From assembly GCA_039583875.1 (NCBI GenBank), contig CM077161.1, forward strand, positions 61,571,885 through 61,635,884: a stretch of DNA of 64,000 nt. Reading direction: 5' to 3'. Made by a program: the position numbers and the translations under genes. The notes beneath the pieces were generated by a model. It was not told the origin of the DNA and did not search any database. It saw only the letters and a program-made list of their open reading frames with translations. The DNA is from Platanthera guangdongensis (taxonomy: Eukaryota > Streptophyta > Magnoliopsida > Asparagales > Orchidaceae). This document shows, in pieces, positions 236 to 61,912 of the stretch; positions within the stretch are counted from its first letter, which is position 1; each line of letters begins with the position of its first letter.

Positions 236-520
236 ATCGACGAGAATCACCAAGTGATTCTCGCCGATTCGGCGAGAATCATTAGTGATTCTCGCCGACT
301 TTATCCGGCTACCTCAAAGCGGTGCCAAGTAAGATTCGGCGAGAATCACTAGTGATTCTCGCCGAACCCATCGTTGAGCAGATCATGGCCAAGTATTATT
401 CGTCAAGAATCAACAAGTGATTCGGCGAGAATCACTAGTGATTCTCGCCGAATCGTCGAGAATCACTGGCTGATTCTCGCCGATTCGGCGGGAATCTTCT
501 TCGATTCTCGCCGATTTTGC
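236..520. repeat. U3 palindrome array of Copia-1
   Basis: Repeated inverted words CGGCGAGAATCA and TGATTCTCGCCG, often placed back to back around ACTAGT or as CGCCGATTCGGCG, so long stretches are self-complementary. The same words occur in the LTR of Copia-4. The array ends about 115 bp before the TATA box. Confidence 0.9.
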
Positions 521-635
521 CTTAGACGATTTTCTGGAACCCCCTGAACTGGATTCTGCCGTTGACACTATTTTGAACCGGATTTAGGGTTTCTACTTGT
601 GGGACCCACAACGGTCATCTTGAAGTTGTCTACAA

Positions 636-643
636 TATAAATA
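636..643 (+). promoter_or_regulatory. Probable TATA box of Copia-1 LTR
   Basis: TATAAATA lies in an AT-rich stretch between the palindrome array and a GC-rich leader, the usual layout of a plant LTR promoter. Transcription would start roughly 30 bp downstream. Confidence 0.6.
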
Positions 644-1499
644 CAGGCTTATTTTTGAACAGTATCACCACGGAATAAAATACACAAAAAGAAGCCGAGC
701 CGATCTTAACCTAAAATCACGAAACTGCTCCGCCGCCGCCGTCGCCGCTCGCGCTAGTTGGTCACCGCTTTTGATCGAGATTTCTTCCTAATCTTCCGGC
801 GACAGAAGCTTAGCCAAGCTTAGTGTCTCACGCGTCTATCCAGAGATCCCTTGTCTCTCGATTTGTTGATCGGGAAAAACTTCCCCGTTCGAATCGATCG
901 AGACGACGATCCTCGTGTGACCGTTGGTAGACCTAGCTAGCTTCGCTACGAAGTTTGGATCTCCAAAGCACAGCAGCCGCACATCGTCGTCGCCGCCAAT
1001 CCCGTGAACCTTGCCGCCGCCCATCTTGCCACCGCCGGTTCCGGGGAGATCCTCTCCAAGAGAGATCTAGGGTTGTGGACTCTTTGTGGACTTCAAGAAC
1101 ACGTCGTCAACGAAGAGGGACACCTTAGTCTCCAAACGTAGTTGTATCTCTTGTACATTCTAGTTTTACTTTTGTTGTAAAGGAACGTTTGTTCCGAGTT
1201 GTAAGGGTTGGGTGCAACCCGTGTTGTGGGAGTGTTGACTCCTACGTGTGGAAGGGTTCCTTCCGATAGTGCAAGGATTAGATTTCAATCCTGTTGGTGA
1301 AGATACCGAGTCGTCCCTTGTTGGGAGATAGGTCGAAGGGGGAAAGTGGATGTACCCAAATCGGGGAACCACTATAAATAGCTTGTGTATTCTGTGTGCT
1401 GGGCTGTTTATTTTTATTGTGCAGGTACAATTTTAAATTCCGCAAAAACGCTGCACGTCACCTATTCCCCCCCACATAGGTGAAATTAGTTGACACTAG

Positions 1500-2131
1500 G
1501 TGGACTTTCAGGGTCGACCCTTAACACAAGTATCGATGGAAGAATTCTCCCGACTCTTCTTAGCGAAGCACCTTCCTGCGGCTCAACGGATAGCCATGGA
1601 AAATAAATTCCAAAGGCTAACGCAAGGTGATGGCAGTGTTGACGTGTACCTGCATGAGTTTACACGCTTGGGGCGGTATGAGGGTTCTATTTTTGCTGAT
1701 GAGCAGAGGAAGACAAATAGGTTCTATGAAGGACTGCGGGACGGCCTGAGGTTCCTGGTTTCTAGTTCTGTGAACCAAGGCTTCCAGGCATTGGTCGACA
1801 CTACGAGCGTGCTGGAAAAAATATGAAGAGGGTGTAGGGGAAGAGGGATTTGGCTGTGACGCAACCGGAGTGGAAGGTGCCCCGACCTGGGAAACCATTT
1901 TATAAGAAGAAATGGGGCAAGAAGTCCAAGACAAGTGGACAAGCTCCTTCATCAGTTGCATCGGGAGCAACGTCGGGGAATACCTCAAGGCCGGATACTC
2001 GTACATGCTTCAATTGTGGTCGGGTGGGGCATATAGCTCGAGGGTGTCGGGTGCCGCCAAAGAATGAAAAGAAGGCGGGAGCGTCGTATGCGGAGAAGGG
2101 CAAGGCAGTAGTTGACTCCTCTGCCTCGTAG
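1500..2131 (+). pseudogene. Gypsy-A gag, C-terminal half, frameshifted
   Basis: The capsid-type segment (1500-1826) aligns residue by residue with the gag of Gypsy-B (shared MEEFSRLFL and YLHEFTRL motifs). The N-terminal half was removed by the Copia-1 insertion. A frameshift near 1826-1850 leads to the second part, which carries an intact CCHC zinc knuckle (CFNCGRVGHIARGC), the nucleic-acid-binding motif of the nucleocapsid. The knuckle is better preserved than in Gypsy-B. No functional protein is expected. Confidence 0.85.
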
Positions 2132-2225
2132 GCGCAGCCCCGGGTCTACAATCTTGGCCTGCAGGAGGCCATCAAGCAGAGTGATGTTGTCACAGGTATG
2201 AGTTTAGTTTGGAATATTATATTGC

Positions 2226-3966: not shown

Positions 3967-5640
3967 TTGGAGCAGAAGGACTTGAACATGCGACAACGAA
4001 GGTGGTTGGAGTTTCTTGGGGACTACACTTTCGAGATACACTATACTCCCGGGAAGGGAAACATAGTCGTGGATGCCTTGAGTCGGAGAGCTCCGGCTAG
4101 AGCGAGTTGGTTACAAAAGCATGATGAACGTCTTATTCAGGAGCTAGAAGCGTTGGAGATTTATTGTGTTGACAAGAATTCTACCGCCAATGCATGTCTG
4201 AACTGGACGGAGGTGCAATGTGACCTTGCAGACCGGATTAGACGCGCAACGGGGTTAGATGAAGATCTCTTACGCTATGTGAACGAGGGGCCAGGGTGCA
4301 AATTCTCCTGGAATGACGGCCTTTTGCGAAAAGAGGGCCGTTTTTGCATCCCGAATGTTGGTACATTGAGCGAAGAACTGATGTATGACGCGCATTATAC
4401 AAAGTATTCCATTCACCCCGGGAGCACGAAGATGTTCAATGATATGAAAAAGCTATTCTGGTGGCCAGGGCTCAAGAGAGATGATGCCCTCTATGTGGCC
4501 AAATGCCAAACATGTGCGATGGTGAAGGCGGAATGCCAAAAGCCGGGTGGTTATTTGAAGTCGCTGCCGATCTCAGAGTGGAAGTTTGATGATATTTCCA
4601 TGGATTTTGTGCACGGGTTGCCGAGATCTCAACGAGAAAATGATTCCATTTGGGTGATTGTTGACCGGCTAACTAAAGTGACACATTTTCTCCCGAACAG
4701 GCGGGATGATTCGGTCGAAAGTTTGGCAAAATTATATGTTGACCAGATTGTACGGCTTCACGGTGTTCCTCGGATCATCGTAAGTGATCGAGATGGGCGA
4801 TTCACGTCAAATGACTGGAGGCTAGTTCACCCACTGTTGGGCACGAAGTTGATATTCAGTACGGCCTTTCATCCCCAAACGGATGGCCAAACTAAACGTA
4901 CCAACAGAACGATGGAGGACATGCACAGGATGTGCGCCCTCGACTTCGGAAAGAGATGGGAAGATCATCTCTACAAGGTGAAGTTTGCCTATAATAACAG
5001 CTACCAGACGAGCATTGGGATGACACCATATGAGACTCTATATGGAAGGAAGTGCCGTACTCCCTTGGCTTGGGTAGAAGCGGGCGAAGCCCGAGTGTAT
5101 AATCGAAATGAGGTCGATGAAGCAAACTCAACCATTCGGACGATTCGAGAGAAGCTACTCATTGCTCAAGATCAACAAGCGAAGTACTACAACGCCAAGC
5201 ACCGGAACGTGGAGTTCGCGGTTGGCGATTGGGTCTACTTGAAGATCAAGCCCTTCAAAGGTGTCTCCAGGATTCGACGTTTGAAAAAGTTGAGTCCAAG
5301 ATATTTGGGTCGATTTGAAGTGGTTGAGCGAGTCGGAGAAGCGGCATATCGACTAGCTCTTTCGGCAGACTTGGGTGGATTACATGATGTGTTTCACATC
5401 TCGGTGCTTCGGAAAGCCGTTAAAGATCCAGCTCAAGTGATTGCGGATGATCATGTGCCGGTGGAATATGGGCTAACAATGAGAGTTAGACCCATTCAGA
5501 TCGAGGATCGAGCCGAGAAACGGTTGCGGAACAAGACGGTCGGGATGGTTAAAGTCCGGTGGGACAACTGCGGCCATGAGGAACTTACATGGGAGCGAGA
5601 GCAAACCATGCGAGTGGAGTTTCCTGAGCGGTTTCTGTAA
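3967..5640 (+). pseudogene. Gypsy-A integrase with chromodomain-like tail
   Basis: Open for 557 residues. In order: end of RNase H, HHCC zinc-binding domain (HYTKYSIH and CQTC), catalytic core, then a C-terminal segment with KVRWDNCGHEELTWE, the chromodomain-type tail of Tekay/Del chromoviruses. The catalytic core has Asp at about residues 213 and 274, but the expected Glu (35 residues further, about 310) is Lys: GQTKRTNR where Gypsy-B has GQTERVNR. The enzyme should therefore be catalytically dead although its frame is open. The stop lies about 120 bp before the LTR. Confidence 0.88.
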
Positions 5641-5760: not shown

Positions 5761-5889
5761 TGTAACAGCCCACTTTTTCAGCAGGCAAAATTTGTTCGAC
5801 GGAAAGTGTTTGGGTGGTCACGCCCTGGATCACGGGCGTGACAGAGGGCGTGTCCCGCTCGGGTTCGACATCAGGTCGACGAAATGCTG

Positions 5890-6380
5890 TGTTCAATGAC
5901 TTGAGCTCGACGATTTAACAAAGGCTTCGTGGGCTGGCAAATCGTCGAACGGAGATCGTCGAGCGCTGGGCCAATTCAACGATCGCTGCCCGATCGTCGA
6001 ACGGAAATCATCGAACGCGCGGGATCGTCAACGGAAATTGTCGAACGTGCTATTTGACGATCGCTGGCGGGCTCGACGATCGCTGGTGAGCTCGACGATC
6101 ACTGCCTAATCGTCGAATGCAGATCGTCGAGCGCAGACCTGATACACGGGCGTGTCACATGGCATGTCTCGCTGAGCTCTCGTGTAGGGGTACTCGAGTA
6201 GTTGGTTTCCTCTCGAGTAAGTCATCTCGAGTAGGTCTCGAGTGAGGTACACGCCCCGTGTCACGGGTGTGACTTGGCCGACACGGGCGTGTACTGTGAC
6301 CGTGACCTGTTTCGGGATAAGGCGGTTTGTGCACCGCTTAGAGACACGGCCTGTGACACGGGCGTGTCACAGGGCGTGTC
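5890..6380. repeat. U3 palindrome array of Gypsy-A
   Basis: Three word families in one array: ATCGTCGAACG and relatives (about 5935-6135), CTCGAGTA (about 6180-6245) and GACACGGGCGTGTCAC-type units (about 6148-6170 and 6250-6385). Each word is found in the U3 of other, unrelated elements in this window. Confidence 0.88.
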
Positions 6381-7765
6381 GGACCCGAAAACCGATTTTG
6401 CGAGTTTTTCGTAGCCATCCATTTTTCTCAGCTTGGATCCAAGGGCTGAGATTCTTTCCTGCTTCCTTAAGGCCGAAAATAGAGAACGTATTCTCATTTT
6501 GTTTTTGCCTTCATCTTTCTAAAAGTTTAGAGAGAGAAAGGGAAAGAAAGACGGAGAAGAAGAAGAGGGGCTGTTAAGTGGTGGCGCTTGTGAGTGTCCA
6601 GCGGTGATCCGAGGCCATATTTGCGGAGAAAAAGCTCTTTCTAGCCAGCTAGGAACTTCATGGCACCAAAGAGGTCTTCAAGGGTAACGAATTTTCTTCC
6701 TAGCCATGTGAAGGCTTCCTTTTTGGCATATGTTTGTGATTCCCCCACCAAGAGGTGACTGATTTTGGGAGTCTTTTGGGTAATTCATGGAATCCCCTTT
6801 TGTTGGCATATAGATCCGGAATTGGAGTACGGAATAGGCATGCTGTGTGAAGCCCATATGGACAGGTTGGTCTGGATTGGTGATGTTGCATACGAATCAG
6901 AGAAGACTCCGTGATAAACGTGTAGTTTAAGGAGTCAACGGGTTATGCCTGTGAAGGGTAGTAGAAGGTGTTAAAATTCAACAAAACCGTAGAGGCCTCC
7001 TCAGATACCCTGTTGACACTCAACAAACCGGCGGAGAACACCCCACTTATATTGTTGAAAGTTTTCCCGGATCGTGGAGTTAGCAGGGGTTATCTCAACA
7101 AAGCAGTAACAACCAGCAACGCATGCAACACAAGCTTCTTTATTGATCAAGAGCAAACTTCTTTACAAGGCGAGACATACATGGCGAGACATGCTTCACC
7201 AAAACCCAAACCAGGAGAGCAGAGACAGTTACAAAGACAAGAAAGAAAAACAAGCCGCGCGGACTCAACCACCAAGCCGCCGGTCTACTGCTGTGGAGTC
7301 CGCTCAGTCCGCCAGGTCGCCAGACCGCAACCCAAGCCGTGCGGACTACCCCTTATTCCAATGCTTAGCTCTTCACCGCCGATATGCAGGCCGCCTGACC
7401 GCGAGGTCGCCTAGCCGCCAGACCGCACAAGCTGCGTCACCGAATGGAACAGTCCGCCTGAAGCAGGTGACTTCCTGAACCCCGAACCAAGTTGCCAAAG
7501 AGGAGACCGCCTGGTCGCTATCCGCGACCTGCTGTTTACCGCTTGTTGCTTAACCGCAGAGTCCGCACCGTCCCTGACCGCAATCAGAGCCAAGTCCTGG
7601 CTTTCCAGCGCTATCCGCACAACCTGCACAGCACAACCGAGTCAACTCTCAAACCGCGCAGACACCAAAGTCCAGACCGCAGCAACTTACGCGAGCTCAA
7701 TTACTGTTCACTTACTTCGGTTCAGGTTGCCTTCAAAAAGGTTAATCCTGATGTGACAAGGGTCC

Positions 7766-7773: not shown

Positions 7774-7784
7774 GGCACGATGAT

Positions 7785-8820
7785 GAGTATGGTCACCGCC
7801 CTAGCCGATAGGATCACCGCCACAACCCGCAGCAAGAACAAGTGTCTCCGCCAGGCCGCGGACACACATTCCAGTTCGCCGCCCCTGTGCAGATAGCCAG
7901 TCCGCCTCAGCTTCTCAAAGGCTGGACTCCAATATCCAGCCCGCCTTGTCGCCAGAGGCCAAGCCAGGACCACCACAGTCGGACTCCACAACAGCTATGT
8001 CCGCCAATCCGCGGACACAACACCAGTCCGCATAACCCGAGTCCGCAGCTTCGCCATCAAGGCACCTGCTGGACTCAAGCGGACACCCGGCTTCCGTCCG
8101 CACTTCACGAGTCCATTGCCTCAATCTCCAAGGCACCGCCGGACTCAACGGACACGCCGATCCAGTCTGCTTACACAGCAAACTCCAGTCCGCATTCCTG
8201 AGTTCATAACCTCATCACAAGGCTAAACCGAACTCAGTGGACTCCAGCTCCAGTCCGCACGCTCTTGCCCAGGCAATCCTCCAGTCCGCATACCCACAAG
8301 CTTAGCAAACAAGGCAACAACACTTCTACTAGGCTTGGCGGACTGAGAAAGCAGCCCGCGCTCCACAGCGCGATTTCCCCGGACTGAGCCATCCTGGACT
8401 TGGTTCAGATCACACCAAGTCCAGTCCATTGGCCAAACGGCCAGTCCGCACTTACTGGCGGACACTGGATCTAGCCCGCCATACCGGGCGACCTCGAGCT
8501 TTAGTCCGCGCTGACCGGCGATCTCTGCGGCTTCCACTTGCCGCTTCACTAGAGCAAGACCAAGGCAACTACCAAATCGGTCTGCCGAGCTCCAGTTCAT
8601 CAGTCCGCTTCATGCCGGACTCCGCAGATAGGATTTCTATCCCCCCGGTTACTTCCTGGGAACCAACTGTCTGCTGAGTAATCCCCGGCCTGACAGACCG
8701 CCGCTGCTGTCCGCGTAGTCCGCGCGAACAGACCGCCCAGGCCGCCACAGAGCAAACCGCCTGCAACATACCTGCCGACTTAGCAGTCCGCAAACCCTGT
8801 CCGCGTAGTCCGCGCGGATA
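7785..8820. repeat. GTCCGC/GCGGAC word array in Copia-2 LTR
   Basis: Dozens of short AGTCCGC and GCGGACT words in both orientations, spaced irregularly, fill the U3; similar but weaker words continue into 7240-7700. The second copy is at about 12015-13050. This family has its own vocabulary but the same placement upstream of TATA. Confidence 0.8.
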
Positions 8821-20209: not shown

Positions 20210-22375
20210 TGTAATGCCCCGAAAATTGTATTTAAGTTGGTCGCGTAAAACGGGATTTTTGGTGCCTGTATAGGGGTACACGGACTAGGACACGGGCGTG
20301 TCCAAGGCCGTGTCTGGCTGGTGTTTTGGCCATTTTCATCCCGAGAAGGACACGGCCAGAAACACGGCTGAAGGACACGGGCGTGTCCTTTGACACGGGC
20401 GTGTGCCTAACCGTGTCTGTACCCGTGTTCTCGAAAGCCGATTGAGTTCGACCAAAAGTGTTCGGGAGGAAGACGCCAGGCGACACGGGCGTGTTAGGAG
20501 GGCGTGCCCCCTGCGTTCGACGATCGGCGAACGGCACTCGACGATCGTCGAGTGACCCTCTGCGTTCGATGATCGACGATTGTCGCGTGACACGGGCGTG
20601 TTCATACCCGTGTCCATACCCATGTTCAATTGGGTCGTGTCCGTTGCTGTGGCAGTTATATGTGACACGCCCCCTGGTCACGGGCGTGTCGAGTACCCGA
20701 CACGGGCGTGTCAGGTGAGACACGGGCGTGTCTTTGAACGTGTGTATTTTCTTCGTTCGACGATTGTGCCTCGATCAAGGCACACGGCCTGGAACACGGC
20801 CGTGTGCGAGGCCGTGTTCGGCCCAGGTCTGAGGAATTTTGTGCAGATCTGAGCCGTTCATTTTCTTTAATTGAGATCCAATGGCCAAGGTGGTTTCCTG
20901 CTCTGCTAAGGCCGGGAATGGGGGAGTTAACTCTTCACTTTCTCCAAGCCATTCTCTTTCCAAGGAGTTAGAAAGAGGAGGAAGAAGGAGGAGGATTCCG
21001 GCCGCCGGCGGAGCATCGGAGCACCGTTTTGAGATCTGAGAGCGAATCCGTGGAGGAAAGATCGTTGCGAAGACTTCTATCCGTGTAGTTTTTCCATGTC
21101 GCCAAAGCGGACTACAAGTGTAACGATTCTCTACTTGAGCATGTGAAGATCTCTTCCTTTTTGCATAAGGAAACCCGCTCCCGCGAGTGTGCGGTGAGTG
21201 CGTGGTGTTCCTTGGGGTTGATGTGAATAGTCCCCCTTGTGTTGCATATAGAGTCCGGAATCGAAGTACGGGCATAGGCATTGTGTGTGAAGCCTACCCG
21301 GACGTGTATTGTCTGGATCGGTGATGTTGCATTTGATATGTTTTGTCGGAGAAGACTCCGTGCTTTGGGTTTTTCGGGTTTCTGCGAGGTAGATTGCAAC
21401 ATGGATCTTTGGGGATTAACTCCAAGGCGCACCCCGAAAACTGAGCGGAAACGTGTTCTGCTAACTTGGCGGTCAGGGAACCGGCCTTGAACATAACCGG
21501 GTTATGTGATTGTTTGGAAAAGTTTTGGGATCCGAGAGAAGCTTGGCTCGTGCGTACATCTTAAAGTGACTACGTGGTGTGAGCAACGGGCAAGTGGAAT
21601 TGGACCTAGGCTATGTGGTTTGGTGTGAGAGACCCGAAAAGGGGACTGGCCGTTGGCATAGTCGGGAGCCTTAGACAGTGGTCAGAAAGGCTAAATGCTC
21701 ACGTGGTTGCCATCTTTGGGATGGTGGTGAAGACGCTGAAGTGGATTCACCGTTAATGTGCCCTGAGTGCACGGGGTGCTTGGCCATGCGAGCCTACACC
21801 TGTGGCGTAATATAATTGCGCTTTACTGTTTTACTGGACTAATGATATGCAGAGAAAGAGCACCGCCGTCCCGAGTAAGGGCAGGGGTCGTTATAATTTG
21901 GTCAGCTTTTGGCTGACCGTTGCTTTGTTTGCCATCGTGCAGTGGAATGTGCTTGCAGGTGCTGCGGAGCCGAGTACCAAATAGCGGGCTGGAGCCCATG
22001 TTGCTGTGCTGGACCTAGAAGGCCAAAGCGAATAGTTGTTGTTTACTTTTGTCATGTGTGGCCAGCCTGCGAGCCGATGTATGGAAAACATTATTTAATT
22101 AAGTGAACCTCTGAAAGGCCATAAGACCAAGTTTCTTTCAGTGTATTATTATTTCAATCCAGTGGTAGTGATTGTGGACATTCATGTTATTTGGATACAA
22201 GTTTGGGTTCTTTCTACTTTTAAAAGCTTCCGCTAGAATGCTCTGTGTAGGACGAGTAGTCTTAATTGGATAGTTTGAATATTCTTATGTAACCCTTCCG
22301 ACTGTCTGTGGTATATGGCGTCGGGTTCCAGCTGGACCTTCTGTTATATGCCATGCGATGGATGAGGGTGTTACA
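20210..22375 (+). mobile_element. Gypsy-B 3' LTR
   Basis: 2166 bp, TGTAATGCCCC to GGTGTTACA. The U3 holds the palindrome array (20280-20825); the rest is collinear with the partial 5' LTR and with the Gypsy-A LTR. I see no clear TATA box after the array. Antisense ORFs with repeated RHTPVS-like peptides are readings of the repeats, not genes. Confidence 0.9.
20280..20825. repeat. U3 palindrome array of Gypsy-B
   Basis: By eye eight copies of CACGGGCGTGT, with half-sites such as ACACGGC and GCCGTGT, interleaved with TCGACGATCG-type words at 20515-20585. The core unit is an inverted pair ACACG-GG-CGTGT. Confidence 0.92.
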
Positions 22376-22384: not shown

Positions 22385-23205
22385 TCGAGTAGAGGACACG
22401 GGTAGAGGCACGAGCGTGCCCCTACCCGTGTGGGAGAGGCCAGCTCTCGAGTCGACGACTCGAGTATGTCCAGAGAAGGACACTGGTAGTGACACGGGCG
22501 TGTCACTACCCATGTGAAGTGACACGGGTAGAGACACGGGCGTGTCCCTACACGTGTGTGTCGAGTTGGACTCGACGAAGTGTGTCGAGATCGACGAAGT
22601 GTGTCGAGATCGACGTGGCAAGCACGGGTACACGACCTGTGACACGGACATGTCACAGGACATGTCCCGCTGTGTCAATAGGTTGACAATCTTCTCTCGA
22701 CAAGGTGTCGAGTGGGTTACACGCCCTGGGTCACGGGCGTGACTGGACCGACATGGGTAGAGACACGGGCGTGTCACTACCCGTGTGTGTCGAGTTGAAC
22801 TCGACAAAGCGTGTCGAGATCGACGAAGTGTGTCGAGATCGATGAAATGTATGACACGGGTAGAGACACGGGCGTGTCCCTACCCGTGTGTGTGTGTGTC
22901 GAGTTGAACTTGATAGAGTTTGTCGAGATGAACTCGACAGAGTGTGTCGAGATCGACGAAATGTATGACACGGGTAGAGACACGGGCGTGTCCCTACCCG
23001 TGTGTCGATGTGTCGAGTTGAGTTCGTCGAGATGTATGCAGAGAAGGACACGGCCAGGGAATACGACCGTGTCATGTGGACACCGGTCGGGACACGGGCG
23101 TGTCCCTACGCGTGTCGAGTATTGAACCGACAATAAAACCGTAGTTGACGCTTCGCCCAAGCAGGACACGGGTAAGGACACGGGCGTGTCCCTAACCGTG
23201 TCACT
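22385..23205. repeat. U3 palindrome array of Gypsy-C (5' copy)
   Basis: About eight GACACGGGCGTGTC-type units, each usually followed by CCTACCCGTGTG, alternating with GTCGAGATCGACGAA and GTCGAGTTGAACTCGAC words. The array stops six bases before the TATA box. Confidence 0.92.
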
Positions 23206-32665: not shown

Positions 32666-32762
32666 CAGAGACCAGAAAAACACTCTAGACACTAAGAAAA
32701 ATCAAGATGTTTGCCTAGTCTTGGTCAATTTTTAAACTTTTAAAATCTTGGATATTATTTTA

Positions 32763-39817: not shown

Positions 39818-40964
39818 TGTTGGGTTTCTCTATAGGGGTGGCACAACGTTTGTGCGCGCAGCGGAAAAGTAAAACATCAAGAAAAACCCAAAGAGATGTG
39901 GATCGGGCCATGAACAGTTGAATCAAGAAGTTAACAAAACTAGGCAAAAATTACCTCGGTGGCGTTGAGTCACAACTCAATGGAGAAGCTCCAAACTTTA
40001 TCTTCTTGCTAGCGGCGAGTTCTACGTGGAATAGTGTCCACGTTTCTGCAGAAGTCCACACGAGCAGGAGAACGCCGAGCTTTCCGTCGCACGGAAAATC
40101 GGGAAGGAGAAGACCGCACCTTTGCTTTCCCACGGACTGCTAGGTCCGCGCCAGGGATTGCAGCGCCAGCGACGATCGCCGGAGAAAAAGTGGTCAACGG
40201 AGCAAACACGGCGGCGGAACTCTTCCGGCGGCGGGATCGGGATCGGCGGAGCGAACGCGGAACTCCTTCCGCCGGGTTTGATTCGCACAGAAGGGACAGA
40301 TCGCATATCTTCTCAAAACCCTAAGTGTTATATTTATACTTAAAGTATAAAATAAACTCAGGAAAATCGCTATCCGCAGACCACTCGAAATTAGGGTTCA
40401 GAATCGGCGAGTATGAATCGGTGAGAATCGGCGACAATCGGCGAGAATCACTGAGCAGGTTCGGCGAGAATCATTCGACGAGTATCACTTTGGATCGGCG
40501 AGAATCAGAGTACAATACTCGACGATTCTCGCCGATCGTCGAGCTACGCTCGACGACTCATAATGATACTCGACGATCGTCGAGCCGCGGTCGACGACAA
40601 TTGTCAAGGTAGTCAATCGTCGAGAATCAACAATTGATTCTCGATGATTCTCGTCGATCGGCGAGAATCAGCAAAGTGATTCTCGTCGATCGGCGGGAAT
40701 CAGAAGACCATTCTCGACTAATGTCTTTGACCCTCGGACGACGAACCTAACCAGCCCTTCAAGGCAACCTTTGCCCAACCCGATGATCCTATAAGGCAAC
40801 AATTTGCCCATAACCCTATTCAGGTCGGTGATTGATAACTTTTACCAACACAGTCAGCCATCCAATTTCTCCACATCTCTTATGTGCGACCCTGCAGGCT
40901 CATATTGCGTTGGCAGTGAGATTACATGTTTGACCACTTCCAGATCATCATGGTAACTCCAACA
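39818..40964 (-). mobile_element. Copia-4 5' LTR
   Basis: Same length and ends as the 3' copy. TATA box (minus TATAAATA) at 40331-40338; palindrome array at about 40395-40710. This copy would drive transcription of the element. Confidence 0.95.
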
Positions 40965-43913: not shown

Positions 43914-44110
43914 ATAAGCTACCTTCTTGAATGTTACTGATCCAATCTGGACTGCACCATATCCTTTAGTTTGTCAAAAGTTTGAATCACCAAAGATAAC
44001 TTTGGGTCCAAGCTTGGCTTTAAAGGATGTGAGGTTGTCCTTGTTTCCTGTCATGTTCTTAGAGCACCCACTATCCAAGTACCATTGCTGGTTTGATGTT
44101 GGATAGGTCT
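43914..44110 (-). pseudogene. Copia-3 protease
   Basis: Minus-strand frame with the copia protease active site WYLDSGCSKNMTG, in phase with the integrase, interrupted by TGA at 43974-43976. It normally releases gag, integrase and RT from the polyprotein. Confidence 0.8.
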
Positions 44111-44237
44111 TCACCTGCACATAAAACAATTCATTTGTTTTTGACCAAGTTTACCTTGGGCCTAGGTTGATAACCTTTAAACTAAGAAATAAAAGACATC
44201 CCAGGTTGACTCTTATAACCTTCAGGATGATATCTCC

Positions 44238-46147
44238 TTAGAGGTATAATCCATTCAGTATAAGGGTTAAAGATTTGGGGTGAAGGACCCCTAGGATTGG
44301 ATTTTGATTTGCCCTTGAAAGAGTTTCCAGAGCTCTGATCTCTGTTCGACGATCGTGGAGCTGTGTTCGACGATCTTGGGTCAGATCGTCGAGCTCCGTT
44401 CGACGGTCGACTGTGGCAGAGTTCAGGAACTTGAGATCGTCGACCTGAGTTCGACGATTTTGCCTGAGATCGTCGATCTGCGTTCGGCGATCGTCGAGCT
44501 CTGTTCGACGATTTCTGCTGGAACTTAGTTTTCTTAGGCAGATCAGAATTTTCCTAGCTACCTCTACAACTCCCTTTCCTTTATCAGAAATGAACTTGAT
44601 TGGAGTTGTTAGAACTATGGGTTGGCTGGATGAAGCACCCAAGCCCAATGTACTATTAAATCTGGAGTTCACTGTGCTTGTGATGTCCATCAGCTTGATA
44701 CTTCTCCCATTAAGGGATTCTTCAAGCTTTTTGGCCTCTGATAGCTCACCTTTCAGTGAAGCTATCTGCTCCCTACAACACTCTAACTCCTGAGAGAGTT
44801 TGAGGTTTTCTGACTTTAAGGTATTATGTTCAGATAAATGATTTCTGAGAGAGATAATTTATTTCTCAGATTTTAGTAAGTCTAAACATAATGCTTTAAA
44901 CTCAAATTTAAAGTCCTCTGAATTGAAATCAAAAGAACTGATTACCTGGTCCTCTTCAAGTTGAGTCTTTGAGTCTGACTCTGAGTCTTCTTCATCTAAA
45001 TTATGTTGTGAGGCATTGATTGCCATTATGCAGAACTCCTTCTCTTCTGCATCATCTTCATCATCACTAGAGCTGGATGAGGCTTCTGACTCCTCTTTAG
45101 TCTCACTCCATGATTCAGCAACAAACCCCTTTCTTGTATGTTTGTTTTTGCTTGAGGAGGGTTTTCCATTGCCATTCCTCTTGGAGTCTTTCTCCTTTCT
45201 TCTTTCTTTCTTGTCCCTTCTGTCCTTGTTTTTGTTTTCTGGATAGTGAGGTACAATGTGCCCTGGTTTCCTGCAACCAAAGCAGGCAATTTCCTTATTA
45301 TTAATTGACTTATCATACCTTGGCTTATCATGCTCCTTGTATGATCTCTTTCTGAAGTCCTTTCAGGCCATCTTGTAAAATATTTTGGCCAGCAGACTGA
45401 GCAGTTCATCATTGCCTGTGACTTTGTCTTCAGGTTGATCTTCAGTTACTTTGAAGGCTATTGTCTTCTCTTTTCTTGTGGCTGGTGAAGCAGCCTTCTG
45501 CTCTTCTTCTCTATTTTTGATTAGTAGCTCATAAGATTTGAGCTTGCCCAAAAGAGCTTCTGTGGTGATCTCATTCAAACTTCTGGCATGCTTGATTGGA
45601 CAGATTCTTGAATCCCAAGGCTAGGCAAGCACATTAGAATTTTGTCACTAAGTTCAGTCAGTGATATCTCCTTATCTAAAGTCCAGAGTTCACTGACTAT
45701 CAGATTGAGTCAATTGTACATATCTCCAACTGACTCAGCTTCTCCCTTCTTGAAATTCTCATATTGAGATATGAGGTGGGATCTCCTATCCTTTCTCTCA
45801 TCAGCTGAGCCTGAGACTATCTCAGAGAGTTTATCCCAGATTTCCTTTGCTGAATAACATTCAGCCACCTTTTGAAAGATGTAATCAGACATGGTTTGGG
45901 CTAAGATGTTCATAGCCTTTGCATCAGCTACCTTCCACTTCTTGATATCAGCATCTGTTCCTGATGGGGGTGGAACAACATTTGTACTTGAGTTCTCTGG
46001 AGGTCTTGGACAAACTGTCAAAACAGAATTAAAAATATCCTCGTCAATAGAATTCATGTATAATCTAATCCTTTCTTTCCAAAGTGCAAACTTGGATAGA
46101 TTGCACACTGGAGGTCTGGTGCTAGCATAATCTTTATTTTGGGACAT
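44238..46147 (-). pseudogene. Copia-3 gag, frameshifted, with palindrome-derived peptide repeats
   Basis: Starts MSQNKDYASTRPP at 46147, with the copia gag domain (KFALWKERIRLYMNSIDE). TGA at 45710-45712 (DMYN-stop-LN, likely CGA to TGA), a frameshift near 45610, TGA at 45363-45365. The zinc knuckle CFGCRKPGHIVPHY has its last Cys changed to Tyr. A Lys-rich and then acidic Ser/Glu/Asp-rich stretch follows, another stop near 44850, a coiled-coil-like part, and finally a Ser/Thr-rich segment with repeated DRRTELDDL-type peptides encoded by a palindrome array (44330-44515). Confidence 0.85.
44330..44515. repeat. Palindrome array inside Copia-3 gag frame
   Basis: GTTCGACGATC and GATCGTCGAGCT words as in the Copia-3 U3, but within the coding frame, where they read as NRRTELDD and DRRTQIDDL repeats on the minus strand. 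Confidence 0.87.
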
Positions 46148-46278: not shown

Positions 46279-47890
46279 TGAAAGTGCAGCTAGATCTGAT
46301 ATACTCTAGAGGGGGGGGGGTGAATAGAGTATATGGTGCTTGAATACTTTTTACAACAATTGTTGTAATCTGAGTGAACAGGGAAGCAACTATTAAATCT
46401 AATCACAAAATAATCTACAACAGAAATTAATCACAGATCTAAACTAATCACAAAACAATCACAGTCAAAAACAAAAGATAAAGACAAGCAAGCCAGAAGA
46501 CACAAGGAGCTATAGTGGTTCCCCTAAACTTGGGTACATCCACTCTTCTACCACCCTAGGTAGGAATCCACTGCAGGATGAGTTGATCAGGTGTCCTGGG
46601 CACCAATGAGCTTTTGATAAGGTGCTCAAAAACCAAATCAGATTTTTTGATCAGGTGTCTTGCCACCAATGAGCTTTTGATAAGGTGCTCAAAAACCAAT
46701 CTCAAACTTTTGAAGGGAGTTTGAGAAACTCTTTACAGAGATGCGGATGGGAGAGTTATGGAAGTCTTCTCTTTCTCAGAGCAGCTGAGAAGACTATGTG
46801 GATTTTATGTTGTCAAAGCTCCCCTGAGTTCTTGAGATGTTTAGGAAATGAAGCTTTGCTGTAGGGTGATAGGCCTTCAGAAGTTGATCTCCAGCAAATG
46901 ATAATTTCAGCAACAGCTGAAATGTTACGTGTCTGGAGTCTTTGAAAGATGTTGGCCTTGAACACTTGAATCAAAGGTGATCTGAAGATTTTCAGATTTG
47001 TTAATCTCCTTTGGTGTGTGTTCTTGTATGAATTCCTTTTAGCTCTTTCTCTTGTGAACAATTGATGTTGAGAAGGATGTTGTTCAGAGAATATTATAGT
47101 AGAGAATCCTTTCTTCTTCTTCTTCTTCTTGTTTTGCTTATTTTTGATGTCTGTCTGTGTGTTGTGTGTTAGAGAGATTCAAAAATCTTGAGTTTTATTC
47201 TCTGGTTCTGAATAGAAATTCATCTGTCAAGAATAGCCGTTGGCCTGTCATTAATTGACTTCCTTAATTGCAATTGTCTTTTGGGGGAAAGTCCAAAGAA
47301 ACATTCCTTGATAATCCCTTGAAACTTGGTCCAGAATAAATGAAAACGGCTAGAAAATCTTCTGAATTAATTGCTGAATAACTCCTTAACTATTCTGAAT
47401 TTGAATCTTGAGAATCCTTTAACTCATCAGAAAAACGTCGAACTGAGCTCTGCTATCGTCGAACTGAGCTCAGCGATTTGGACTTATACAGCAACAGAGA
47501 TCGTCGATCTGAGCTCAACTATCGTCGAACTGAGCTCAGAGATAGAGAATCAATACTAAGTCAAGATCGTCGAACTGAGCTCGAAGATCGTCGAATGGAG
47601 TTCGACGATTTGTTGAAGTTGAGCTCAGCGATTGTCGAATAGAGTTCAACGATCTGTCGAAGTTGAGCTAGACGATCGTCGATTGGAGTTCGACGATTCG
47701 TCGTACTGAGCTCGATGATATGACTTAGTCTTCAAACTGAAAATCCTTGGTCTTGAGGGCAGCTTCCAAACCTAAGTACTAATCCTTAGACTCAATTCTA
47801 ATTGACCTTTAGAGCTATATAGGAGGTCAAAAACAGGTTTCCTAAAAACATAGTGATCCTGATCCAAGTTAGTAATAGGGTGTTCCAACA
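46279..47890 (-). mobile_element. Copia-3 5' LTR
   Basis: 1612 bp, collinear with 27379-28985. Longer C-run at the terminus (46311-46320 on the plus strand are all G). Palindrome array at about 47436-47720. The TATA-like site (47023-47030) differs by one base from the other copy. Confidence 0.93.
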
Positions 47891-51392: not shown

Positions 51393-52235
51393 AGAGGACA
51401 CGGGTAGAGACACGGGCGTGTCCCTACCCGTACGGGAGAGGCCAGCTCTCGAGTCGACAACTCGAGTATGTCCAGAGAAGGACACGGGTAGTGACACGGG
51501 CATGTCACTAACCGTGTGAAGTGACAAGGGTAGATACAAGGGCGTGTCCCTACCCATGTGTGTGTCGAGTTGGACTCGACGAAGTGTGACGAGTTGGACT
51601 CGACGAAGTGTGTCGAGATCGACGAAGTGTGTCGAGATCGACGTGGCAAGCAAGGGTACACGGCATGTGACACGGGCGTGTCACAGGGCGTGTCCCGCTG
51701 TGTTGAGAGGTCGACAACCTTCTCTCGACAAGGTGTCGAGTGGGTTACACGCCCTGGGTCACGGGCATGACTGGACCGACACGGGTAGAGACACGAGCGT
51801 GTCACTACCCGTGTGTGTCGAGTTGAACTCGATAGAGCGTGTCGAGATCGACGAAGTGTGTCGAGATCGACGAAATGTATGACACGGGTAGAGAAACGGG
51901 CGTGTCCCTACCCGTGTGTCTGTGTGTCGAGTTGAACTCGACAGAGTGTGTCGAGATGAACTCGACAGAGTGTGTCGAGATCGACGAAATGTATGACACG
52001 GGTAGATACACGGACGTGTCCCTACCTGTGTGTCGGTGTGTCGAGTTGAGTTCGTCGAGATGTATCCAAAGAAGGACACGGCCAGGGAACATGGCCGTGT
52101 CATGTGGACACCGATCGGGACACTGGCGTGTCCCTACACGTGTCGAGTATTGAACCGACAATAAAACCGTCGTTGACGCTTCGCCCAAGCAGGAAACGGG
52201 TAAGGACATGGGCGTGTCCCTACCCGTGTCACTTT
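51393..52235. repeat. U3 palindrome array of Gypsy-C (3' copy)
   Basis: Same units as 22385-23205 with point differences and small indels (for example an extra GACGAGTTGGACTC unit near 51587), so repeat units have been gained or lost since insertion. Confidence 0.9.
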
Positions 52236-52238: not shown

Positions 52239-52246
52239 TATATAAG
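52239..52246 (+). promoter_or_regulatory. TATA box of Gypsy-C 3' LTR
   Basis: TATATAAG four bases after the array, identical to the 5' copy. Confidence 0.75.
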
Positions 52247-53076: not shown

Positions 53077-54527
53077 CGTTGCGTTGCCTTCACACCGCAC
53101 TTGCTGCAGCCGCAATTGCTCCTTCCCACCGCACTTGCGTTGCCTTCGTGGATCCGGAGTCGGCTTGCGATTCGGAGCGGCAATACCCTCTCCATGCTGT
53201 GCTCCGAAGCTCCGCAGCTCCTCATGCGTTTGGCTGTCTAGCACTGCACGGGTTCTAGTTCTCGCAGCTCCGCAATCTACCGTAGCAATTTATATAACCA
53301 TAACCATTTCATCACAGGCGTTGGCTCGCACGGCCACACGCCCCGTGCACTCAGGGCACATTCTCGGTGAACCGGTCGATGTCACGTCAATTAAAGCCAT
53401 TAACATTCCGGACTCACCACCGCCACTTAGACGGCCAAACCTATGAGCAATTTGTCTTCCTGGCCTGGGTCACGACAGTTTAAGCCATTGACCGCCGAAG
53501 ACCCTCATCTATGCCAACGGTAAGTGCCACGTAACCTTAGGTCTCTTTAACTGAACGACATAAAGCGGGTACGGTTCCATCTAACCCGTGCTCACATCGC
53601 AACGACAATTTAAGCCATTTGCGCGGGTCAAACTTCCTCCGAGTCCCATTCTACCGCAAGTCACATAACCACGTTATGTTCTAGTTGGCTCTCAGGCCAC
53701 CAAGTTGGCAAGATCTCGTATCCGCCCAGTTTTCCGGGTGCACCTTTGGGTTAGTCCCCAAGGCTCCCTGCTGCAATCTACCGCGTAGAAAACCCGAAAA
53801 ACAACCAATAGCACGGAGTCTTCTCCGGCCTTATGCAATGTAACATCACCGATCCAGACTAACACGTCCGGGTAGGCTTCACACATCATGCCTATGTCCG
53901 TTCTCGCTTACGGACGCTAAACAACGGGGACTTTACATATCTACCCGAAGGAACGCCTCCAACTCTCCGCAAACTCGCGAGAGCGGGCTTCCTATGCTAA
54001 GAAAGAGAGCTATTCGTGCTCAAGATGAGGATCGTTACCCTTGAGTTCCTCTTTGGGGCCATTGAAAAGTAATCGGATGGAAATCACCGCACTTGCATTG
54101 CCTTCGTGGATCCGGAGTCGGCTTGCGATTCGGAGCTCCGAAGCTCCTCCAATGGCGGATCTAGCTCCTCTTCCACTCTTGGCTCTCCTCTTTCTCTAAG
54201 GACTTAGAGAGATGAAAAGTGAAGGAAAGTGATGGATTTCTAAGTCAACTCACGGGTATATCCTCTCAGGAACAACCCCCAGCCGTTGGATCTCAACCTA
54301 AGAAAACGAACGGCTTTGATTCGGGGCTGAAATGCCCAATCTGGACCGAACACGGCCTGGCACACGCCCGTGTCCAGGGCCGTGTGCCGCATTCGCCGTC
54401 AAAATCGAATCTCCTGGAACCTCACACGGGTATCGAACACGCCCGTGTTCGAGCTGACACGCCCGTGTTCCACGTCACACGGCCGTGCAGCCGGCCGTGT
54501 ACCCCATGATTTTTCCCCATTTAACAT
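53077..54527 (-). mobile_element. Inverted A/B-type LTR fragment
   Basis: Minus-strand match to blocks of the Gypsy-B LTR in order: the ACTCAGGGCACA block (53345-53365), the CACGGAGTCTTCTCC block (53812), the GTAGGCTTCACAC block (53874), and a U3 array with ACACGCCCGTGT words (54345-54510). Both ends are missing. A 50-bp segment starting ACCGCACTTGC occurs twice (53128-53177 and 54086-54135), a sign of local rearrangement. No gene. Confidence 0.75.
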
Positions 54528-54825
54528 AGCTGGACAGCAGGTCCATGCACAAAATCACGTCGAAGTCTACCAAATCTAGCACCTTCAGATCCGCAAAGGC
54601 TAGAAAACCACATAGGAAGATGGGGCATTTTTGGATACCCTGACCTGACCTCACCAACTCTCCTGAAGGAAATTTAACGTTTATGGAGGTGTCTAACTGG
54701 TCGATAGCCCATCGGTGTCGGTTTACAAAACTCCCCGCCATAAAGGAGAGAGTAGCACCCAAATCGAACAAAATGTGTGCCCACTTATTCTTCACCTTAA
54801 ACTCACCTAAACACATAGCGCGCAC
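54528..54825 (-). pseudogene. Gypsy-D protease start, truncated
   Basis: Aspartic protease segment with the active site altered to LFDLGATLSF (usual DTGA) and the second motif DVILCMDLLSSY (usual GMDWL). The frame runs into palindrome repeats of the neighbouring LTR fragment and ends there. Non-functional. Confidence 0.78.
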
Positions 54826-57834: not shown

Positions 57835-60368
57835 TGTAACACCTCCCCTGTAATGACCGTATAATATGGGTCCGGCCGGGGCCCCACAACATACAGACGC
57901 CACAGCTTCAGTATTATAAAATGATATAGCTACCCAAACTCAAAACTCAAAACACATCACAGCGGAAACAACCAAAGAGACTAGAAGTTATCCACGCCTA
58001 CAAGAGTAACAAAATGGCCTTAATGCCTTACAACAAGAGTAAATCCAAACTCAAATAATACATCAGTCCTGAAAGTGCATAAGCACACCTAGTCTACCTC
58101 GGCATGCAAGCCGGTCACCAAGGGCATCAAAACATACAATGTCATAAAGAGTAGAGCTACAACAAAAAGTTAACACTTCATGAGGCTTAGGCCTTTCTGG
58201 CCAGTGAGCTAGCTTCTGCTTGCGATCCTTACCCTGTAAAATTTATTAGTAACGTGGGTCAGCAAAGGCTGACCTCAAACTGTGTAACGAACACATCTCC
58301 TCCCGGCCGCCCCTAACAGACCCCGGGGTACTCCTCCAACCTGCAAGTTAGCACTTCGTATGCAATAATCATAAGAAAGAAAAGAAACTAAGGAAACAAG
58401 CTTGGATATCTCAAACATCATACATGTTTTCTATTGTTGAGTATATAATAATAGGGCCTACTATGCAACATGAATGGAACACCCGGGCTTCACCCAAGGA
58501 ACCCTATAACATATGCATCTAACACAACATCACATCAATTGGGTACTCATCATTTCCCCATTGGCATAAAGCTGCAAACAAAAGGTGAACCACAATCCCC
58601 CAATGGCATACAAACCGCCACACGGAACTCTTGCTAAGGCCAAACCCGCTCACGGTCGCAGACCCGGGCTTGCCGGCAAACTCTGACTTCTCATGTCAGG
58701 ATTCCGTCCAACACACTGACCGATTCTAAGAACCCTTGCTGGACCCCACCTGCTCATGGCCTCATTGCCCAGGCTTGTCCCATGCTCGGTGTTCTCGTCA
58801 GTCTCACACAAAGGGGACTAGTCTCGCCGGGACACTTTCCACACATGACTTGCACGTCACGGGATAGCCAGCTGACCACGGAGACACAGCCACGCCTTGG
58901 CACATCACAAACCAAGACATTTCCTCCATAATCCCTCATACGTACTGCAGCGTTCCCGCGCATCAAGGAAACCATCTACCACTCATGCGGAGCTAACCTT
59001 ATTCACCAAGGAAACCATCTACCGCCAATGAGGAGCTAACCTTGTCCGGTACCGGCAACACGTACTCATGCAAGATAAAGGGAAGAACATCACAAACAAC
59101 ACGAACATCACAAACGGCCCCTTGCTGCAGCGGATTTCTATGAATCCTTAAATCTCGTATGCAACATCACCGAGTCGGACTAACGGTCGCGACTACGGCT
59201 TCACCCACCATGCCTAATCCACTAACGGAGCGGATCTCTAATGCAAAAATCATGCCGGGGACGGACTCAATCGACCCAGAGGTTCCTCCTGAACCTTGGC
59301 GACCCAAACCCCTCTCATTTGACTGTTTGGTGCCCAAAAAATAGAAAAGAAAAGATGCTAAAACATGCATCCAAAAACCGAGAGGAGAAGTGTCGTTACC
59401 TTCCGACTCCTCTTCCTAGCCATGAAAAAATAGCTGGATGAAAACCTTCGCAACGATCTAGCCTCCACGGATCTGGACTCGGCTCGCGATTTGGATCTCC
59501 GAAGCTCCGCCGGTGACCAGATCTAGGCTTCTTCTTCTTCCTTTACTCTCCTCTCTCTCTTGACTTAGAAAGAGAACCACTCAAAAGAAATGAGGGTTTC
59601 TAAGGGTCCAATCCCGTGTATATCCTATCAGGAACAACCCCCAGCCGTTGGATCCCAAATTAAAGAAACGAACGGCCTTGATTCGGGCCTGAAATGCTAA
59701 AACTGGGCCAAACACGGCCTGCGACACGCCCGTGTCCAGGGTCGTGTCCCACATTCTCCGTCAAAATTGACGCGCCTGGAACAACACACGGGCATCCGAC
59801 ACTCCCTTGTTTGACCTGACACGCCCGTGTCCTAACTGACACGGCCGTGTGGTCGGCCGTGTGCCGCCATCGACACAACCCAGAAAATAACCCGAGACTC
59901 ACAAGGGTACTAGACACGCCCGTGTCCTTTCCCGTTTCTAACTCAACACGCCTGGGCTCCAGGCCGTGTTCACTGTCTCGACACTTCGTCGAGCAAAGTT
60001 CGTCGACTGCCTGACACGGCCTTGGACACGCCCGTGTCCTAGGTCGTGTGCCTTGTCTCGACACATCGTCGAGCGAAATTCATCGACTCCCCAGGCCGAT
60101 CGTCGACACGGGCTCGACACGCCCTGAGACACGCCCGTGTCTCAGGCTGTGTTCTCTGCTCGACGACCGTCGACTCCCAAAATTGTCGACCTCTCGACCA
60201 AATCGTCGACTGGAGCCTGACACGCCCAGGGACACGCCCGTGTCCCAGGCCGTGTGCCCCCTGCCAGAAACCAATTTTCCTTCTCGACGAACCCCGTGAG
60301 ACTCTAAGCTAAGACCCAAACTTGGCCAGAAATGCTGGTCGTCCCTCTACAAATTTTGGGGCATTACA
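57835..60368 (-). mobile_element. Solo A/B-type LTR inside Gypsy-D LTR
   Basis: Minus strand starts TGTAATGCCCC (60368), as the Gypsy-B LTR does, and ends GAGGTGTTACA (57835). Its end segment with GGGGCCCCGGCC resembles the Gypsy-A LTR end. Flanks are GATCA (57830-57834) and TATCA (60369-60373), four of five bases alike. No internal region or second LTR is present, so it fits a solo LTR left by LTR-LTR recombination. Confidence 0.83.
59705..60290. repeat. U3 palindrome array of the solo LTR
   Basis: ACACGCCCGTGTC units with ACGGCCGTGT variants, interleaved with ATCGTCGA and GTCGACGA words at 59975-60220. Same vocabulary as Gypsy-B and Gypsy-C on the opposite strand. Confidence 0.9.
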
Positions 60369-61300
60369 TATCAGCTCAACAATAAAGAGTACTGTGCCGG
60401 GGAAAAAGGTCCACAACGCGCACAAACCCAGCCAACAGGCACATGCCGAGGGAGAAAACTCAACGCGCATAGACCAAGCTAAGGTAATGTGCCGGGGATG
60501 AAAGTCCACAACGCACACAGACTCAAGCATAAGGCACTATGCCGAGGGAGAAACCCCAACGCACACAGTCCATCTGTGTTTCTTTAGTTACATAATTATG
60601 CAAGCAGTGTTCATTTTTATCCATCACGGTCTCACGGTCAACAATAATATGGACTGCATAAGGATATTTCAAGGGTCAAGCCAAGTGTAGCATAAACAAT
60701 ACAATGAGACGCACAAGGCGTCACAACGATCTACATGACTCGATAAGTAAGGTTGCAAGACAACCAAATTTGACTAGCAAATCTACAGGACAAGAATTAG
60801 GGGTAAAGGTTCAATGATTTGACTAGAAATTTATAGACGAGTTATAATGAATTTTATAGATAAGTTTCAATGAAAAAATAACATGACAACCCAACGAAAA
60901 TCTGGCAAAATAAAGAAGGAGGGAGCAAGAGAGAGGGCAAGAACACCACTTGCCTTGATTTTACCAGAAAAATTCTCGGAATCACCTCACGTCGCAGATC
61001 GGGGCAACATTAGGAGTCGAAATCTGAACGAAAATGACCGAAATAGAGGTTAGAAACGAAAAACCCTCACGAGAAAACTCAAGAAATGGGAAAAACATTA
61101 CCACGATAGCGTAGCTCTTGACGAGAGCTTTCCAGATCTATGATCGGTTGGAAATTTCGAGCACCGGAGCTCCACCGGCGGTCACCGGAAGATTCACGAC
61201 TCAGAGTTCTTCGTCACTATCGCCCTCTGGTTCGGCCAAGAGAAGAAGAAGAAGAAGAAAAAGTTCTTTATGTTTTGTTTATAACTATCCTAAGTAGAAG

Positions 61301-61302
<2 letters not shown>

Positions 61303-61361
<59 letters not shown>
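61303..61361. repeat. (AT)n microsatellite
   Basis: About 58 bp of perfect TA repeats between the U3 array and the possible TATA of the Gypsy-D LTR. Confidence 0.95.
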
Positions 61362-61365
<4 letters not shown>

Positions 61366-61562
61366 TTATAAAATTTCTTGTCTAAAACGGACGATCTACG
61401 AGCGATTGCACGGAAGATGAAATAGAGTTTTAGGATGACCTCAAATCAAAACGTGTCCAATATTAAAGTTGTAGATCTTGTCGAGATGAACAAATTTCAT
61501 GTTAATTATTTTTCGATACGACATCGTTTTGACTTTCAAAACGGCACTCGAACTCAAACTAT

Positions 61563-61912
61563 AATGAGCTACTCGGGAACAAGATAACAGGTACCCGAGA
61601 GGTAGAAAAAAATAGGCTACTCGAGTAAGTAGGAACAGTCACTCAAGTATATAAAAAGGTACTCGAGTATAAAAATATCAGTACTCGAGTATGTATAAAC
61701 AGTACTCGAGTATATAACAAATCTACTCGAGTAGATATAAAAAATATACTTGAGAGGAACCTGAGTACTCGAGAGCAGAAAAAGAAGTACTCGAGAGCTT
61801 GAACAGTGAACCCAGTCATGTATATAGAACAGATCACTCGTGTATATGGAACAGATCACTCGAGTATATGGAACAGATCACTCGAGTATATCGAACAGTA
61901 CTCGAGTATGAA
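61563..61912. repeat. ACTCGAGTA array in Gypsy-D U3
   Basis: More than a dozen ACTCGAGTAT or ACTCGAGAG units, mostly spaced 15-25 bp by A/T-rich spacers such as TATAAAAA and GAACAGATC. The unit core CTCGAG is a perfect palindrome, also present in the Gypsy-A U3. Confidence 0.9.

Follow-up and report, generated by a model that had tools for sequence, protein, structure and literature searches.

Long terminal repeat (LTR) promoters that work with host factors have been described for ONSEN (HSFA2), EVADE (WRKY, W-box) and PHRE1/2 (TCP20, DOF2 and GATA) in passages of PMC12786077. Among DNA transposons, VANDAL elements bear short motifs clustered in noncoding DNA, which are family-specific, lie in one orientation and have a known protein, VANC (passages of PMC5735166). 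Here we describe a 64-kb stretch of the Platanthera guangdongensis genome (the window, C15:61571885-61635884; the assembly spans 4.25 Gb) in which copia and gypsy retrotransposons alike carry arrays of short inverted words. LTR elements make up 73.24% of this genome according to passages of the genome paper (PMC9023349), and the stem "palindrom" is absent from the main text of that paper.

Like ONSEN, EVADE and PHRE1/2, the elements in the window have host-type regulatory sites in their LTRs, here predicted; unlike them, they carry many dyads per LTR with a fixed gap, and the same dyad is found in copia and gypsy. The likeness to VANDAL elements lies in the clustering of short motifs in noncoding DNA of transposable elements (TEs), whereas the words described here are inverted and cross-family, and no significant sign of CpG protection was seen. 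Among the matches listed in a literature search that took in few subscription papers, titles and abstract beginnings held no description of cross-family palindrome arrays in the U3 part of LTRs, and six word strings sought in literature texts were not found. Palindromes have been discussed as weak insertion targets (Jedlicka and co-workers, in part of PMC6911290).

A preliminary description of the window had reported twelve palindrome arrays in unrelated retrotransposon families, placed in U3 just upstream of TATA boxes. This observation holds in substance and is partly confirmed. When reverse-complement 8-mer pairs are counted along the window and compared with dinucleotide shuffles, eleven of the twelve are inverted-word peaks far above the shuffles (for example 384 pairs versus 7.5 at 201-600, 200 versus 13.8 at 40401-40800, and 84 versus 9.7 at 22601-23000). 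The exception is the Copia-2 region at 7785-8820, where no scanned interval has at least 20 pairs, the commonest word (CAGTCCGC) is non-palindromic, partnered 8-mers reach just 1.9-2.8% and the observed/expected CpG ratio is 0.90. Peaks absent from the earlier list lie at 32401-32800, 44001-44600 and 54201-54600; they include two arrays outside LTRs, both inside Copia-3, and a third in another LTR. Some weak intervals also show up in the scan, as does the (TA)n run at 61303-61370. The features are listed below, with loci beyond the window given L numbers.

236-516, plus strand: array in the Copia-1 LTR, with CGGCGAGAATC-N6/7-GATTCTCGCCG dyads; TATA at 636.
5880-6382, plus strand: array in the Gypsy-A 3′ LTR, with the words ATCGTCGA, ACACGCCC/GGGCGTGT and CTCGAGTA; no TATA.
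7785-8820, minus strand: Copia-2 U3, with GC-rich direct words (CAGTCCGC) and no palindrome array; TATA at 7773.
20280-20825, plus strand: array in the Gypsy-B 3′ LTR, with ACACGGGCGTGT and ATCGTCGA; no TATA.
22385-23205, plus strand: array in the Gypsy-C 5′ LTR, with CACGGGCGTG and TGTCGA-N7-TCGAC words; TATA at 23211.
28531-28815, minus strand: array in the Copia-3 3′ LTR, with a CGTCGA-N7-TCGACG dyad.
29153-32257, minus strand: accessory open reading frame (ORF) of Copia-3, interrupted, with weak PF20167 likeness; relative of an ORF in L011.
32405-32670, minus strand: internal array of Copia-3, between pol and the accessory ORF, with three N7 dyads; TATA at 32378, ATG at 32257.
33340-33668, minus strand: array in the Copia-4 3′ LTR, with CGAGAATC and N7 CGTCGA dyads; TATA at 33283.
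40395-40720, minus strand: array in the Copia-4 5′ LTR; TATA at 40338.
44330-44515, minus strand: internal array of Copia-3 in the gag-pol region, with three N7 dyads; also in the copy L025.
47436-47720, minus strand: array in the Copia-3 5′ LTR.
51393-52235, plus strand: array in the Gypsy-C 3′ LTR; TATA at 52239.
54350-54505, minus strand: array in an incomplete LTR, a relative of the solo LTR; no TATA.
59705-60290, minus strand: array in a solo gypsy LTR, with ACACGGGCGTGT-type words, CTCGACGA and one N7 dyad; no TATA.
61563-61912, minus strand: array of TACTCGAGTA in the Gypsy-D LTR; a TATA match borders a TA run 193 bp downstream.

The types of Gypsy-A, Gypsy-B, Gypsy-C, Copia-2, Copia-3 and Copia-4 are confirmed by gag, integrase or reverse transcriptase domains, and the labels of Copia-1, Gypsy-D and the solo LTR are those of the preliminary description, not domain-based. 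Copia-4 is nested inside Copia-3. Paired LTRs are 97.0% identical in Copia-2, 96.6% in Copia-3, 98.3% in Copia-4 and 91.4% in the aligned part of Gypsy-C, and target-site duplications were found for Copia-2 (GAAGG), Copia-4 (TTTTA) and Copia-3 (CGTAC/CGTAT, with one mismatch). The claim that the families are unrelated stands for copia versus gypsy, but Gypsy-A, Gypsy-B and the solo LTR have a common LTR backbone by BLAST, and the pol regions of Gypsy-A and Gypsy-B also match (70.9%). Other pairs among the nine LTR backbones compared gave no BLAST match at 0.01. The partial LTR at 54 kb is similar to the solo LTR, and a third Gypsy-C-type LTR part, inverted, adjoins Gypsy-D (62475-64000 on the minus strand versus 24031-25552 on the plus strand).

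The place of the arrays within the elements was measured as the share of 8-mers with a reverse-complement partner within 250 bp, compared with local shuffles, with LTR edges and the Copia-3 U3/R border placed by eye. In U3, 8.5% of 8-mers are partnered versus 1.5% in shuffles, a density higher than in R-U5 (1.7% versus 1.2%) or in internal and other DNA (1.3% versus 1.1%), both of which are near shuffle level. The R-U5 of Copia-3 is somewhat raised (3.8-3.9%), and LTRs without a TATA call reach 2.9% versus 0.9%. Inverted words are thus concentrated in U3, but a restriction to U3 is not supported, as two arrays (32405-32670 and 44330-44515) are internal. The observed/expected CpG ratio is 1.15-2.02 in palindromic arrays and 0.68 outside masked arrays.

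Many of the words recur across families. Words of the ACACGGGCGTGT type are present in Gypsy-A, Gypsy-B, Gypsy-C, the solo LTR and the 54-kb LTR; ATCGTCGA in Gypsy-A, Gypsy-B, Copia-3, Copia-4 and both internal arrays; CGAGAATC in Copia-1 and Copia-4; and CTCGAGTA in Gypsy-D and Gypsy-A. Relative to the element, CACGGGCGTG has a single orientation in 31 of 31 cases (six LTR stretches of the window). With 200 shuffles for each comparison, the arrays of Gypsy-A and Copia-3 share 28 9-mers (shuffle mean 2.3, maximum 10), those of Gypsy-B and Copia-4 share 14 (mean 1.7, maximum 7), those of Gypsy-B and Copia-3 share 12 (maximum 5) and those of Copia-1 and Copia-4 share 35 (maximum 11). Several pairs are not above shuffles, among them Copia-3 with Copia-4 (13, maximum 16) and three listed pairs with Copia-2, and sharing between backbones is available as raw counts in longer sequences only (21 for Gypsy-B and Copia-3, for example). 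Words are thus shared between copia and gypsy arrays above shuffles, with no BLAST match between the LTR backbones concerned. Such sharing may have arisen by exchange of modules or by convergence, the two routes proposed earlier.

The same design is found far beyond the window. We took 10-kb stretches blind, twenty at round positions (one each on C1-C20) and four at random, and inverted-word peaks are present in 17 of the first 20 and in three of the next four. Arrays of five named word classes, the only clusters counted as arrays in the 304 kb of window and sample, occur in 13 of the 24 stretches, and an additional word, GTGTCGACAC, reaches 31 core copies per array. Genome-wide, where our counts of repeats are lower bounds, ACACGGGCGTGT occurs at least 246,983 times on one strand and 247,384 times on the other, with 78 and 114 for the reversed control.

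The clearest part of the design is a strict 7-bp dyad. The form ATCGTCGA-N7-TCGACGAT is present at no fewer than 120,524 places in the genome, versus 230 for N6 and 352 for N8, and the reversed control gives 0 in all three. In the 304 kb, TCGTCGA-Nk-TCGACGA occurs 23 times at k=7 and 0 times at all other k from 0 to 15, with 16 different spacers as read, or 14 when reverse complements are merged. The shorter GTCGA-N7-TCGAC has 38 cases in gypsy and copia arrays (three at k=6, none at k=8), and these are spread over Gypsy-C, the solo LTR, Copia-3, Copia-4, both internal arrays and several of the sampled loci. A dimeric binding protein accounts better for a fixed gap with spacers that vary than do hairpins, satellites or palindrome-making mutation, and the gap sharpens the earlier suggestion of a host factor that binds palindromes. 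Because Copia-3, Copia-4, Gypsy-C and the solo LTR all carry (C/T)GTCGA-N7-TCGAC(G/A), they would probably use the same factor. For the GTGTCGACAC sites, helical phasing was considered and rejected: spacings cluster at 18-23 bp, and a Rayleigh scan favoured no period.

Many arrays are close to a TATA box, defined for the listed arrays as TATAWAD in sense orientation within 600 bp downstream. Seven of the twelve have one, at 120 bp in Copia-1, 12 bp in Copia-2, 6 and 4 bp in Gypsy-C, 57 bp twice in Copia-4 and 193 bp in Gypsy-D. In the 304 kb, a TATA that points away from the array is found within 300 bp of 20 of the 32 word arrays, versus a mean of 9.5 and a maximum of 16 in 500 random placements, a test that ignores element strand; for arrays outside the window the figure is 11 of 20. 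Clusters with ACACGGGCG words are mostly without TATA.

The internal array at 32405-32670 comes after the pol end of Copia-3, where Copia-4 interrupts pol, and is followed by 27 bp, the TATA at 32378, a further 121 bp and the ATG of the accessory ORF at 32257. In a second copia element, L011, a GTGTCGACAC array (3982-4292) likewise follows pol; next come a TATA at a distance of 48 bp and, after another 110 bp, an ATG. The two accessory ORFs are related (35% over 115 residues, 5.6e-17), and in both elements the word of the internal array is that of the LTR array (the L011 3′ LTR was recognised by eye). The strongest indication that the arrays are features of promoters in general, not of LTRs, is that internal arrays use the LTR-array word and precede TATA and ATG; a promoter inside the element, behind pol, may likewise be built on this design. 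A third candidate internal promoter, in L012, has a pol end near 8050, an accessory-like ORF (26% over 110 residues) and a TA run as TATA; it contains no exact words and so gives no support for an array rule. The other internal array, at 44330-44515, recurs in another copy (L025, 6985-7130).

An extra gene between pol and the 3′ LTR is known from Grande and Retand, and a title in the reference list of PMC11963269 reports that the Grande accessory gene is transcribed from its own promoter. Retand ORFs, according to a published abstract, are antisense to gag-pol and mostly carry a TRP28 domain, whereas the Copia-3 ORF, of about 1000 codons, belongs to a copia element, lies on the strand of gag and pol, and follows a dyad array and a TATA. 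A Pfam scan of one piece gave PF20167 only, weakly, and TRP28 was not searched by name; the piece and some relatives match PF20167 below the Pfam cut-off. Proteins similar to the ORF are Platanthera hypothetical proteins or seemingly fused gene models, and four of six of them in one listing carry the name Platanthera guangdongensis. An AlphaFold2 model of the accessory protein was discarded (mean predicted local distance difference test score 39).

Some sampled loci hold repeats of other kinds. By eye, the peaks in L019, L024, L026, L027 (3501-4100), L017 (1801-2400) and L030 look like tandem or single long inverted repeats: L019 1-400 and L024 1-900 are satellite-looking tandem repeats with inverted GC-rich words (CCGAGCTCGG; GGGCGAGACCGGCCGG), and L026 2701-3300 and L030 2301-2900 resemble miniature inverted-repeat transposable elements in being single long inverted repeats. 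An array of inverted CGTTGAGTGAA and TTCACTCAACG at L017 8501-9400 represents a further word class, as possibly does one around CGAATTCG/ATTCGTCG, beside CTATTTATACC sequence, at L028 7501-8100. In L013 (2301-2900), GGGGCTGAACCGATCCGGTTCAGCCCC just before GGGTATATTTATACC is another palindrome beside a TATA, in a further element.

The arrays, their place, their sharing, the fixed gap and the copy numbers of two words are all direct observations, and the design they define is real, widespread, promoter-like and common to gypsy and copia. From these we infer function, factor and origin of the sharing. We think it probable, with some reserve, that the arrays are homotypic clusters of predicted dimeric-protein sites, acting as upstream promoter elements of the LTRs and probably of the internal promoter. 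A dimeric, sequence-specific, trans-acting factor, most likely of host origin, would bind the arrays and be used by gypsy and copia alike, and the bound arrays would activate the LTR promoters; the array behind pol would probably drive a promoter of its own. Selection would act on active master copies, and the other words (GTGTCGACAC, CGGCGAGAATC-N6-8-GATTCTCGCCG, ACACGGGCGTGT and TACTCGAGTA) would serve other factors or variants. The pattern suggests that unrelated families share one way of being switched on.

Several observations weigh against binding by a dimeric protein at promoters. The 600 bp downstream of five of the twelve listed arrays contain no sense TATA (Gypsy-A, Gypsy-B, both Copia-3 LTRs and the solo LTR), and the position upstream of TATA, as first described, fails as a general landmark. 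TATA boxes that point toward arrays are also somewhat frequent (13, versus a random mean of 9.6), and some of the "away" matches in the window sit on the wrong side for the strand of the element. The internal array at 44330-44515 lies within the gag-pol reading frame and has no TATA. Before the Copia-3 accessory ATG there is, by eye, a sequence like a 3′ splice site (TTTTTGCAGG), suggesting that the ORF may come from a spliced LTR transcript and not from its own promoter.

The dyad itself is less uniform than its strictest form. Direct repeats of the type TCGTCGA-N7-TCGTCGA are also present (eight cases), direct and everted pairs show other gaps, and CGAGAATC dyads have gaps of 6, 7 and 8 (11, 9 and 4 cases). 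Pairs of GTCGA and TCGAC are frequent at 9, 10, 15-18 and 30, mostly in GTGTCGACAC arrays, and Gypsy-A and Gypsy-B hold half-sites and no exact N7 dyad. The 120,524 genomic copies are not independent, as most come from a few amplified families, so the case for repeated use depends entirely on the diversity of spacers. The idea that half-sites are protected from substitution was rejected, since between two Copia-3 LTR copies 13 of 118 half-site positions differ versus 21 of 170 in spacers, no clear difference (outside the array, 56 of 295).

One alternative, which we judge unlikely, is that the arrays are anti-silencing sequences read by a TE-encoded protein of the VANC kind, the accessory ORF of Copia-3 and L011 being the reader and other families exploiting it. 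Dense clusters of short motifs in noncoding DNA are indeed what passages of PMC5735166 describe for VANC21, and in Copia-3 and L011 the LTR and pre-ORF arrays carry the same word. CpG decay, an indirect measure of methylation loss around the motifs, was compared between the LTR pairs of Copia-3, Copia-4 and Gypsy-C, with Copia-2 left out. In Gypsy-C alone it is lower in the array (16 of 91) than in the rest of the LTR (12 of 34), but the pooled decay is not significantly slower in arrays (22 of 164 versus 17 of 98 elsewhere, p 0.47; non-CpG sites, 41 of 1107 and 89 of 2784). No significant CpG protection of the arrays is thus seen; with decay so similar the copies are not clearly protected, and either active lineages must maintain the high CpG content or it must be young. 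Moreover, VANC21 motifs are described in those passages as rare in other TEs and in one orientation, whereas here ATCGTCGA words are shared by gypsy and copia arrays and inverted, and the accessory protein offers a sub-cut-off likeness to PF20167 and no usable fold.

We give no greater credence to RNA hairpins or DNA cruciforms, for which palindromes would be kept for structure in the 3′ end of the transcript or in the DNA. Flanks of ACACGGGCGTGT do covary: across positions 1-6 of the 37 sites kept after near-identical ones were removed, the sum is 3.19 versus 2.20 ± 0.18 when sites are re-paired (0 of 2000 re-pairings), and for the unfiltered 62 sites, positions 1-8, it is 4.69 versus 3.66. 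A plain dimer site has no need of such covariation, and it counts against our preferred reading too; re-pairing does not remove the relatedness of sites, which leaves the effect partly unexplained. Covariation is weak around CGAGAATC dyads (nine sites, 4.89 versus 4.36, 30 of 2000), and Copia-1 has perfect palindromes of up to 36 bp. However, flank covariation is absent around TGTCGACA (95 sites, 2.03 versus 2.09), the N7 dyad (10 sites, 1.50 versus 1.98) and, overall, CTCGAG (59 sites, 351 of 2000, with a high value at position 2 only). The sense strand around ACACGGGCGTGT, the other words having no defined strand, has no excess of G.T over A.C (18 versus 17; unfiltered, 23 versus 38), which speaks against RNA structure, and a loop has no reason to measure exactly 7.

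Neutral slippage, or template switching during reverse transcription, might make and spread palindromes in noncoding DNA, and some arrays are indeed partly tandem, as are the repeats with inverted words in L019 and L024. We hold this to be about as improbable, because R-U5 and internal DNA, each taken as a class, hardly exceed shuffles, the same words occur in families whose LTR backbones give no BLAST match, one array lies within the gag-pol frame, and a single inverted gap of 7 goes with 16 spacers.

A comparably doubtful proposal would name the factor, as an AUXIN RESPONSE FACTOR (ARF) or related B3 protein on everted repeats (ER) of TGTC. ER7 and ER8 sites also join inverted half-sites at a set gap, and the Gypsy-C form TGTCGA-N7-TCGACA, found at 25,150 or more places genome-wide (reversed control, 283), puts TGTC and GACA 11 bp apart, which is the ER7 of AtARF1 and AtARF5 (in part of PMC6207667). 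The 11 bp between (T)GTC and GAC(A) extend to (Y)GTCGA-N7-TCGAC, with the N6/N8 contrast available for the ATCGTCGA form only. Yet CGTC stands on both sides in 26 of the 38 N7 dyads and seven are mixed, leaving five, four of them in Gypsy-C and one in L022, whose two half-sites both have the TGTC core.

Slightly less likely still is a combined scheme in which gypsy and copia share a promoter code of 7-bp-gap dyad arrays read by one dimeric factor, the array in one copia branch also drives a second promoter, for an accessory dyad-binding protein with which the element runs its own transcription, and other families exploit this switch. Ordinary satellite DNA is dismissed, as the Copia-3 and Copia-4 arrays sit in LTR pairs with target-site duplications; an association with TE promoters is supported instead.

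For the dimeric-site reading, the internal copies ahead of the accessory ORF would offer a naturally occurring second test case outside the LTR. If it is true that unrelated families depend on one dimer site, present at more than 120,000 places, a single host factor could govern a large part of the retrotransposon load of this genome, and a retrotransposon burst could be traced to a single regulator.

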